64,000 bases of DNA from Geminicoccus roseus DSM 18922 (GTDB lineage Bacteria > Pseudomonadota > Alphaproteobacteria > Geminicoccales > Geminicoccaceae), in NCBI RefSeq assembly GCF_000427665.1, contig NZ_KE386572.1, positions 3,720,373 to 3,784,372 of the forward strand. Direction: 5' to 3'. Both the position numbers and the translations under genes were made by a program. Positions 51,887-53,731 of the stretch are shown piece after piece. The notes under the pieces are model-generated. The model was not told the origin of the DNA. It worked only from the letters and a program-made list of their open reading frames with translations, and ran no database searches. Position 1 is the stretch's first letter. Each line of letters opens with the position of its first letter.

Positions 51887-52390
51887 ATGGCCAAGAAAGA
51901 ACTGGCTTTTGAGCCTGGTGATCACATCGTCTATCCTTCCCACGGGGTAGGAAGAGTCCGCAGCGTGGAGACCGAGATCATCGCCGGTTTCGAGCTGGAG
52001 ATGTATGTCGTCGGCTTCGAGAACGAGCGCCTGACCTTGCGGGTCCCGGTCGGCAAGGCCGCTAAGGCCGGCATGCGCAAGCTCAGCTCGCGCGAGAAGA
52101 TCCAGTCGGCCCTGGAAGCGCTCAAGATCAAGACCAAGCCGCGTCGCTCGGTCATGTGGAGCCGTCGCGCCCAGGAATACGAAGCGAAGATCAATTCCGG
52201 CGATCCCGTCGCCATCGCCGAGGTCGTCCGCGAGCTGCACCGGGCCGAGGACGCCGAGCAGTCCTATTCCGAGCGGCAGATGTACCGCGCCGCCCTGGAG
52301 CGTCTCGCCCGCGAGGTCGCGGCGATCGACAAGGTCGACGAGGCGGAAGCGACCCGCCGCCTGGAGAAGGTGCTGTCCGCCGCGGCGTGA
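51887..52390 (+). CDS. CarD-family RNA polymerase-binding regulator (CdnL)
   Basis: A 167-residue CarD/CdnL protein. The N-terminal RNAP-interaction domain starts FEPGDHIVYPSHGVGRVRSVE, and the C-terminal helical DNA-binding domain has RAQEYEAKINSGDPVAIAEVVRELHRAEDAEQSYSERQMY. It binds the polymerase beta subunit and stabilises open promoter complexes, notably at rRNA promoters. The start is the ATG at 51887. Terminator directly follows. Confidence 0.95.
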   Translation: MAKKELAFEPGDHIVYPSHGVGRVRSVETEIIAGFELEMYVVGFENERLTLRVPVGKAAKAGMRKLSSREKIQSALEALKIKTKPRRSVMWSRRAQEYEAKINSGDPVAIAEVVRELHRAEDAEQSYSERQMYRAALERLAREVAAIDKVDEAEATRRLEKVLSAAA

Positions 52391-52417
52391 GCAGCCTTTC
52401 ATCGCCGGATCGAAACG

Positions 52418-52449
52418 ACGGGGGCCCTTCCAGGCCCCCGTTTCGTTTT
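52418..52449 (+). terminator. Terminator of carD
   Basis: ACGGGGGCC (52418-52426) pairs with GGCCCCCGT (52433-52441) around a 6-base loop and is followed by TTCGTTTT. It is a good Rho-independent terminator, 28 bases after the carD stop. Confidence 0.85.
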
Positions 52450-52472
52450 GGCGGCGCGCCTGCCTTGCCCGC

Positions 52473-52670
52473 TTGCACGAACGAACCCGGCAATCCAGCC
52501 GGCGGCCACGGCCAATCCCGCTCCCGTCCGGGCATGGCGCGGGCCGGGGCGGTGTGACGCCGCGCGTCGGCCCGCTGGGTTTTGCACGAACGAACCCGGG
52601 AGCGCCCGCGCCCCGGCCGGCCAAGCCCACGGTGCCGGTCATGCGCCCGCGTTTGCACGAACGAACCCGG
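52473..52670. repeat. Three exact copies of an 18-base repeat
   Basis: TTGCACGAACGAACCCGG occurs exactly at 52473-52490, 52582-52599 and 52653-52670, all in the same orientation. Copies 2 and 3 also share flanking T and G, so they agree over about 20 bases. Start-to-start distances are 109 and 71 bases, and the DNA between them is unrelated. They fill the gap between the carD terminator and the convergent gshB. Each has a GAAC-GAAC direct repeat. Too few, too irregular and too short to be a CRISPR array. Confidence 0.85.
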
Positions 52671-52768
52671 GATCGGTCACGATAGAACCCGTCGGGCGAA
52701 GGGCTTTGCGTCCCCGGCCGCCCGGATCCACCGGGACGAGCCCGGGGAGCCGCGCCGGGACGAATGCC

Positions 52769-53731
52769 TCAGACGGTCGAGCCGCGGCTTTCCGCCACCC
52801 GCTCCTCGATCACGTCCCAGATCTGGCCCTCGATCGAGACCCTGTCGAACCGGTCGATCTCCTGGATGCCGGTGGGCGAGGTGACGTTGATCTCGGTGAG
52901 ATAGTCGCCGATCACGTCGATGCCCACGAAGATCAGGCCGCGCTGCTTGAGCGCCGGGCCGATCGCCTCGCAGATCTCGTGCTCGCGGTGGGTGAGCGTG
53001 CTCTTCTCCGCCCGGCCGCCGACATGCATGTTGGCGCGCGCCTCGCCATCGGCCGGCACCCGGTTCAGGGCGCCCGCGACCTTGCCGTTGACCAGGATGA
53101 TGCGCTTGTCGCCGGCGCGCACCGCCGGCAGGTAGCGCTGGATCATCAGCGGCTCGTTCAAGAAGCGCGCGAACATCTCGTGCAGGCTGACCAGGTTGGT
53201 GTCGTCCGGCTTGATGTGGAACACCCCGGCCCCGCCATTGCCGTAGAGCGGCTTCACGATGATGTCGCCGTGCTCCTTGCGGAACTCCCGGATCTCGTTG
53301 AGATCGTAGGTGATCAGGCTGGGCGGCATCAGTTCCGAGAACTGGGTGACGAACAGCTTTTCCGGTGCGTTGCGCACATGGTGCGGGTCGTTGACCACCA
53401 GGGTCTGCGGATGGATCCGGTCCAGCAGGTGCGTGGTCGAGATGTAGTTCAGGTCGAACGGCGGGTCCTGGCGCAGCAGCACCACGTCGACCCCGGCCAG
53501 GTCCAGCTGCTCGGCCTGGCCGAACTGGACATGGTCGCCCTTGACGCGCTGCACCTGGAACGGCCTCGCCTTGGCAAGAACCCGCCCCTCCTTCCAGGAC
53601 AGGTCGCGCGGCTGGTAGTGGTAGAGGCCGAAGCCGCGGCGCTGCGCTTCCAGCGCCAGCGCGAACGTGCTGTCGGCGTCGATCGCGACGGTTTCCAGCG
53701 GATCCATCTGGATTGCCACCGCTAGTGACAT
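52769..53731 (-). CDS. gshB: Glutathione synthetase
   Basis: A 320-residue ATP-grasp enzyme joining gamma-glutamylcysteine and glycine. Features are the N-terminal [25 protein letters not shown], the ATP-binding [17 protein letters not shown] loop, [22 protein letters not shown], and the C-terminal [20 protein letters not shown] with the metal-binding Glu and Asn. Length matches E. coli GshB (316). It faces the HIT gene with an 82-base divergent gap that contains the promoters. Confidence 0.97.

Follow-up and report, generated by a model that had tools for sequence, protein, structure and literature searches.

A genome-wide directional 20-bp repeat in Geminicoccus roseus and its association with an unannotated gene family

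Three 18-bp repeats in the carD-gshB gap of Geminicoccus roseus DSM 18922 are, we are nearly certain, copies of a directional repeat found throughout the genome, and there is strong reason to believe that arrays of this repeat are paired with a family of unannotated proteins. Together these observations suggest a gene-and-repeat pair that has not been described. That the protein recognises the motif, and that the two propagate in the manner of REP sequences and their RAYTs (REP-associated tyrosine transposases), is an inference on which we are evenly divided, as neither binding nor transposition has been shown.

The array lies within a window of 64,000 nt, the whole stretch of DNA analysed, and has the following features:

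51887..52390, + strand: carD, left flank, pointing at the array (Pfam PF02559, PF21095)
52417..52442, + strand: carD terminator-like hairpin, ahead of the array and also aligning in G. flavidas
52473..52490, + strand: motif copy 1, core TTGCACGAACGAACCCGG (exact 18-mer match)
52582..52599, + strand: motif copy 2, full form TTTTGCACGAACGAACCCGGG (exact 18-mer match, 20-bp motif census)
52653..52670, + strand: motif copy 3, full form GTTTGCACGAACGAACCCGGG (exact 18-mer match, 20-bp motif census)
52678..52691, + strand: degenerate fourth core CACGATAGAACCCG
52769..53731, - strand: gshB, right flank, pointing at the array (Pfam PF02955, PF02951)

An earlier note on this DNA had reported three exact 18-mers in a single orientation, with starts 109 and 71 bp apart, and all three were recovered on the + strand with this spacing. 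It had also described the gap as convergent, which is correct, and as 200 bases long, which is not: the stop codons are separated by ~378 bp (52391-52768), and 198 bp is the span of the three copies. The hairpin of carD precedes the first copy. A scan of the window allowing up to three mismatches returned only the three array copies (shuffled sequences averaged 0.12, and 0/100 had three). No inverted partner of the motif was found within the window array, so the terminal inverted repeats of a MITE are lacking, and the best Rfam score, 16.8 bits, is far below the gathering score of 123. The partner gene family is absent from the window. A search for a promoter-like element at the carD-gshB array found none, which we count against the gene-and-repeat reading.

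A search of the G. roseus genome (5,698,370 bases in 5 contigs) for the 18-mer, tolerating as many as two mismatches, gave 107 copies (49 forward, 58 reverse). This 18-mer forms the core of a 20-bp directional motif, (A/T)TTT(G/A)CACGAACGAACCCGAG, with 148 copies at up to three mismatches, 40 of them perfect; reversed controls gave 0 copies in both searches. These counts bear out the first option of the earlier note, a genome-wide dispersed repeat. They also overturn the condition under which that option was to be abandoned, namely only three copies and no conservation in relatives, as there are ~150 copies in the genome and the 14-mer core (up to one mismatch) is present in 27 of 31 family genomes, in several at background level. 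The two other options, a protein-binding array and the remnant of a small mobile repeat, are not excluded and are both still alive.

Copies of the motif fall in ~55 clusters. A profile of 146 copies, taken from 53 of the 54 cluster loci fetched and weighted by locus, has sharp edges (-5 to +15) with no context beyond and, read by eye, no self-complementarity; the 54 loci were picked for holding a match and do not sample the genome at random. Within a locus the core ACGAACCC almost always keeps to one strand, with a single opposite-strand copy at just one of the 54 loci, and CCAAACGAACCCGGG is a variant form of the motif. Array spacers are locus-specific and tandemly duplicated, and two arrays (L089 and L105) have ~64 bp in common. 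A k-mer comparison of array flanks revealed no second conserved motif beyond a TTTG extension.

A strong excess of the motif is confined to Geminicoccaceae, the class sample containing no comparable genome outside the family. Counts of the 14-mer core are 158 in G. roseus, 79 in G397, 45 in G385 and 33 in G411, with 0 to 4 in other genomes. In G. flavidas, flanking alignment places the motif at the same position as in G. roseus at eight of 24 fetched loci, and at the shared loci that were aligned the spacers fail to align. One further shared motif sits in a homologous copy of the partner protein gene, and in one more aligned pair (L201 and L138) the positions of the motif differ. In G. flavidas the carD-gshB gap retains a single motif copy, and other sequence has taken the place of its middle part. 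This gap (L208) includes ~500 bp not in G. roseus that by eye have the look of an acetyltransferase fragment; one frame examined has a stop. Composite arrays occur in identical order at three loci of G411 (L223 at 1700-2090, L224 and L225), each with ~5 palindromes TGTCGC...GCGACA followed by ~5 motif copies repeated every 21 bp and an AT-rich, promoter-like stretch.

Several candidate extensions of this range were rejected. The exact 11-mer CGAACGAACCC, counted in 372 genomes outside Geminicoccaceae, reaches at most 10 (G029, control 1) and 9 (G338, control 2) versus 121 in G. roseus, which does not support a class-wide spread. A pair-array pattern matched 33 of 385 class genomes, mostly as single or unrelated low-complexity matches; the pair scan also picked up a Clostridia record (L142), a repetitive stretch that looks unrelated, and 13 single exact 16-mers in viral contigs were taken as chance. 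'ERTNP' and 'NEAN' reading frames in other bacteria served only as a lead; the 11-mer counts gave no support for a wide spread of the exact Geminicoccus form, and the distant alphaproteobacterial loci supported the variant form. In the open-access literature we found no description of either the motif repeat or the partner protein.

The proteins encoded at several motif loci start MPR-x-x-AQAEASRRNGARSRGP and share an N-terminal RNGARSRGP-x-T-xxGKxRSAQNAxxHGLR segment, a helical middle and a C-terminal tail. Four of them had no match in Pfam, three had no credible family in NCBIfam or PHROGs, and no catalytic domain was recognised with these three resources. A single-sequence structure model of a 5'-truncated member (mean pLDDT 66.7) had no PDB match at E<0.001 and is uninformative. 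With a nine-row profile (A1) the protein was detected in 24 of the 31 family genomes, including seven copies in G. roseus, 19 in G397 and 17 in G131, and in at least 17 of 385 class genomes, an undercount since no more than seven candidates per genome were scored. Homologues are encoded by three plasmid records (Planctomyces pPL62-1, Marivivens and Picosynechococcus); the queries used returned none from viral contigs or phages. Across the 31 genomes, motif count correlates with protein copy number (rho 0.58, p 6e-4, without correction for phylogeny). Seven family genomes, with motif counts of 0 to 4, have no protein match, which we count against the gene-and-repeat reading.

The association is most direct at the protein genes themselves. 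Six of the seven G. roseus gene copies coincide with motif clusters, and all nine Geminicoccus protein loci examined contain the core ACGAA(C/G)CC. Among 86 distinct protein loci, 52 have this core in the 3' region, with 106 forward and six reverse occurrences; shuffled patterns average 3.6 loci and 0/500 reach 52, the top ones (46 loci) being near-variants of the motif itself. In G397, additional copies occur at the N-terminus on the same strand. The rate varies by group, at 11/28 loci in genus g2, 0/3 in g290 and 7/18 outside the family. Genus g290 (G409-411), with motif counts of 13-33, one protein copy per genome and three protein loci lacking the core, speaks against the pairing. Distant alphaproteobacterial loci have the word ACGAA(G/C)CCAA, for example within TTTTGCCAAACGAAGCCAAA. 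The 18 out-of-family loci contain ten copies of it (shuffled mean 0.53; 1/1000 shuffles reaches ten), and at six of them it falls in the interval from -125 to +121 bp around the stop codon, with either orientation represented; the remaining 12 have no motif near the stop codon and are counted against. On the plasmids, the word is found inside the 3' part of the gene in Planctomyces pPL62-1 and 160 bp after the gene in Marivivens, and it is absent from the Picosynechococcus plasmid region. Over whole plasmids, there is a modest excess in Planctomyces (four words, shuffled mean 0.37) and none in Marivivens (two words, mean 1.79, in the first 149,800 of 169,066 bases).

Some duplicated units have the motif as their boundary. 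Two G. roseus gene copies, a recent duplication (C5:3993584 and C5:5232768), have 695 bp in common at 97.8% identity, starting 19-20 bp before the ATG and stopping immediately past the last motif. A G397 pair (777 bp, 92%) starts 11 bp before the ATG and ends exactly at a motif. Two G131 pairs end 13-25 bp past the stop and not at the motif, which counts against such a boundary; hence motif-ended duplicates are two of the four pairs closely examined. Upstream of many copies there is, as read by eye, a promoter-like TTGACA-TTCCTA-TGCTA stretch, and three loci (L089, L095 and L121) appear to have retained the promoter-like element and start codon without the coding domain.

Gene contexts, which are approximate because genes were called with a simple custom script, place 35 of 146 copies in a gene on the same strand and eight antisense within a gene. 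Convergent gaps contain 29 copies, divergent gaps 11 and tandem gaps 51 (34 opposed to the gene direction, 17 along it), with 12 undetermined; some of the placements in genes are array regions and are uncertain. The absence of a clear orientation relative to transcription speaks for a role at the DNA level. Within conserved genes, the motif stretch is gap-free in LeuRS (L091) against orthologues in four other genera, in TatD (L130) against those in five other genera, and in an SDR gene against solved structures. The LeuRS and TatD copies are thus not simple insertions. Query fragments of both genes had no match in G385, a nominally complete genome in 1150 contigs where assembly breaks may explain the result. 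A CysRS gene (L128, G000:C5:4251000-4255600) has four motif copies in frame, each in a variable part of the enzyme, and L137 (G000:C5:5045600-5051900) contains an open frame of ~2000 residues that starts with membrane-like segments and has TNEPE/TSEPG repeats with a period of 78/156 bp.

The gap-free gene copies are the strongest evidence for either selected binding sites or an overwriting process, and they are among the reasons to take seriously, as an unlikely but real contender, the explanation that the motif is a selected site for a host protein that would bind DNA in a nucleoid, segregation or regulatory role, and that the gene family merely carries such sites. The SDR copy is kept in both G. 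roseus and G. flavidas, the eight positions shared by the two species persist though the aligned spacers differ, and 53 cluster positions are spaced more evenly than random (CV 0.74 versus 0.98, P 0.012), with the caveat that clusters were drawn by eye for this test. A host site alone leaves unexplained why one gene family should have the motif in its 3' part in genus after genus and in other families, and why two duplicates end at the motif.

It is improbable, in our judgement, that biased uptake and recombination have spread the motif as a DNA uptake sequence, with the gene family spreading because it carries several copies. The non-palindromic form, lineage-specific dialects within the family, occurrence on both strands and gap-free copies inside genes would all fit. 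Tight same-strand tandem arrays, which the motif forms, are not a known feature of uptake sequences. The ~150 copies also seem few, as uptake sequences are reported to number in the hundreds to thousands (PMC2346458).

A repeat maintained at the protein level (TNEPE), with DNA conservation secondary, seems very improbable. The C-terminal tails of family members do contain in-frame (C/Y)TNEPE, and repeat distances are multiples of three in G406, four G397 loci and L137. Against this, 108 of 141 T(D/N)EP stretches in our loci use exactly ACGAACGAACCC (a biased figure, as the loci come from the motif search), spacings of 107, 109, 71 and 73 within arrays are incompatible with one continuous frame, the TatD and SDR genes translate the motif in frames other than this one, and the window copies are non-coding. 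The frame data rule it out as a general cause. Local chance duplication without wider meaning has next to no standing, being ruled out by the genome census, and nothing was found in its favour.

We return to a gene-and-repeat pair as the preferred reading. The carD-gshB array would be one of ~55 clusters of a motif partnered with the unannotated gene family, whose protein is inferred to bind the motif. Units of gene and array, ended by the motif, may be copied around the genome, although target-site duplication has not been established. Loci from which the coding domain has disappeared would then be non-autonomous offshoots, as would bare arrays like that at carD-gshB, and both would grow and shrink through local tandem duplication. 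The pair would work like REP/RAYT, but its protein is unrelated and its repeat is not palindromic. A more ambitious version, which we advance only tentatively, is an undescribed class of self-propagating gene and repeat in which the protein recognises a conserved, directional word of ~16-20 bp, of the form TTTTGC-N-AAACGAA(G/C)CC(A/G)A, at the end of its own gene; it would have seeded >100 copies in Geminicoccaceae, some of them gap-free in essential genes (LeuRS), and its protein is found in several alphaproteobacterial families and on planctomycete and cyanobacterial plasmids. If true, this names a widespread unannotated protein family and offers a clean testable target of one protein and one 20-mer. 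The gap-free LeuRS and TatD copies raise the question of how a 20-bp word is written into conserved genes without added length.

Comparison with known systems helps to place the pair. On the criterion of spacing alone, its arrays differ from CRISPR arrays in being irregular (109 and 71 bp in the window, locus-specific elsewhere). Rickettsia palindromic elements are repeats carried in frame inside protein genes, for which the four CysRS copies are a parallel; the motif differs in not being palindromic, in being much shorter and in having gap-free copies as well. With the DNA uptake sequences of Neisseriaceae and Pasteurellaceae the motif shares a short non-palindromic word, family dialects and some copies in genes, and it differs in its seemingly lower copy number, tandem arrays and tie to one gene family. 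The closest likeness is to REP sequences and RAYTs (PMC2817692, PMC3116915): more than 100 short interspersed copies (148 here), mostly between genes and lineage-specific; a linked gene with the repeat at its border; non-autonomous clusters; and repeat abundance that tracks the partner gene, here without phylogenetic correction. REP is an imperfect palindrome, and the RAYT is an IS200/IS605-like tyrosine transposase flanked by an inverted pair of repeats, whereas the Geminicoccus motif is not palindromic, its partner is not a recognised RAYT, the motif lies on one strand at the 3' side of the gene, and some copies are gap-free inside conserved genes. Because palindrome, transposase type and inverted flanks were each tested and did not hold, the pair is not a member of REP/RAYT. 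If our reading is true, a short bacterial repeat has gained a partner gene by a second, unrelated route.
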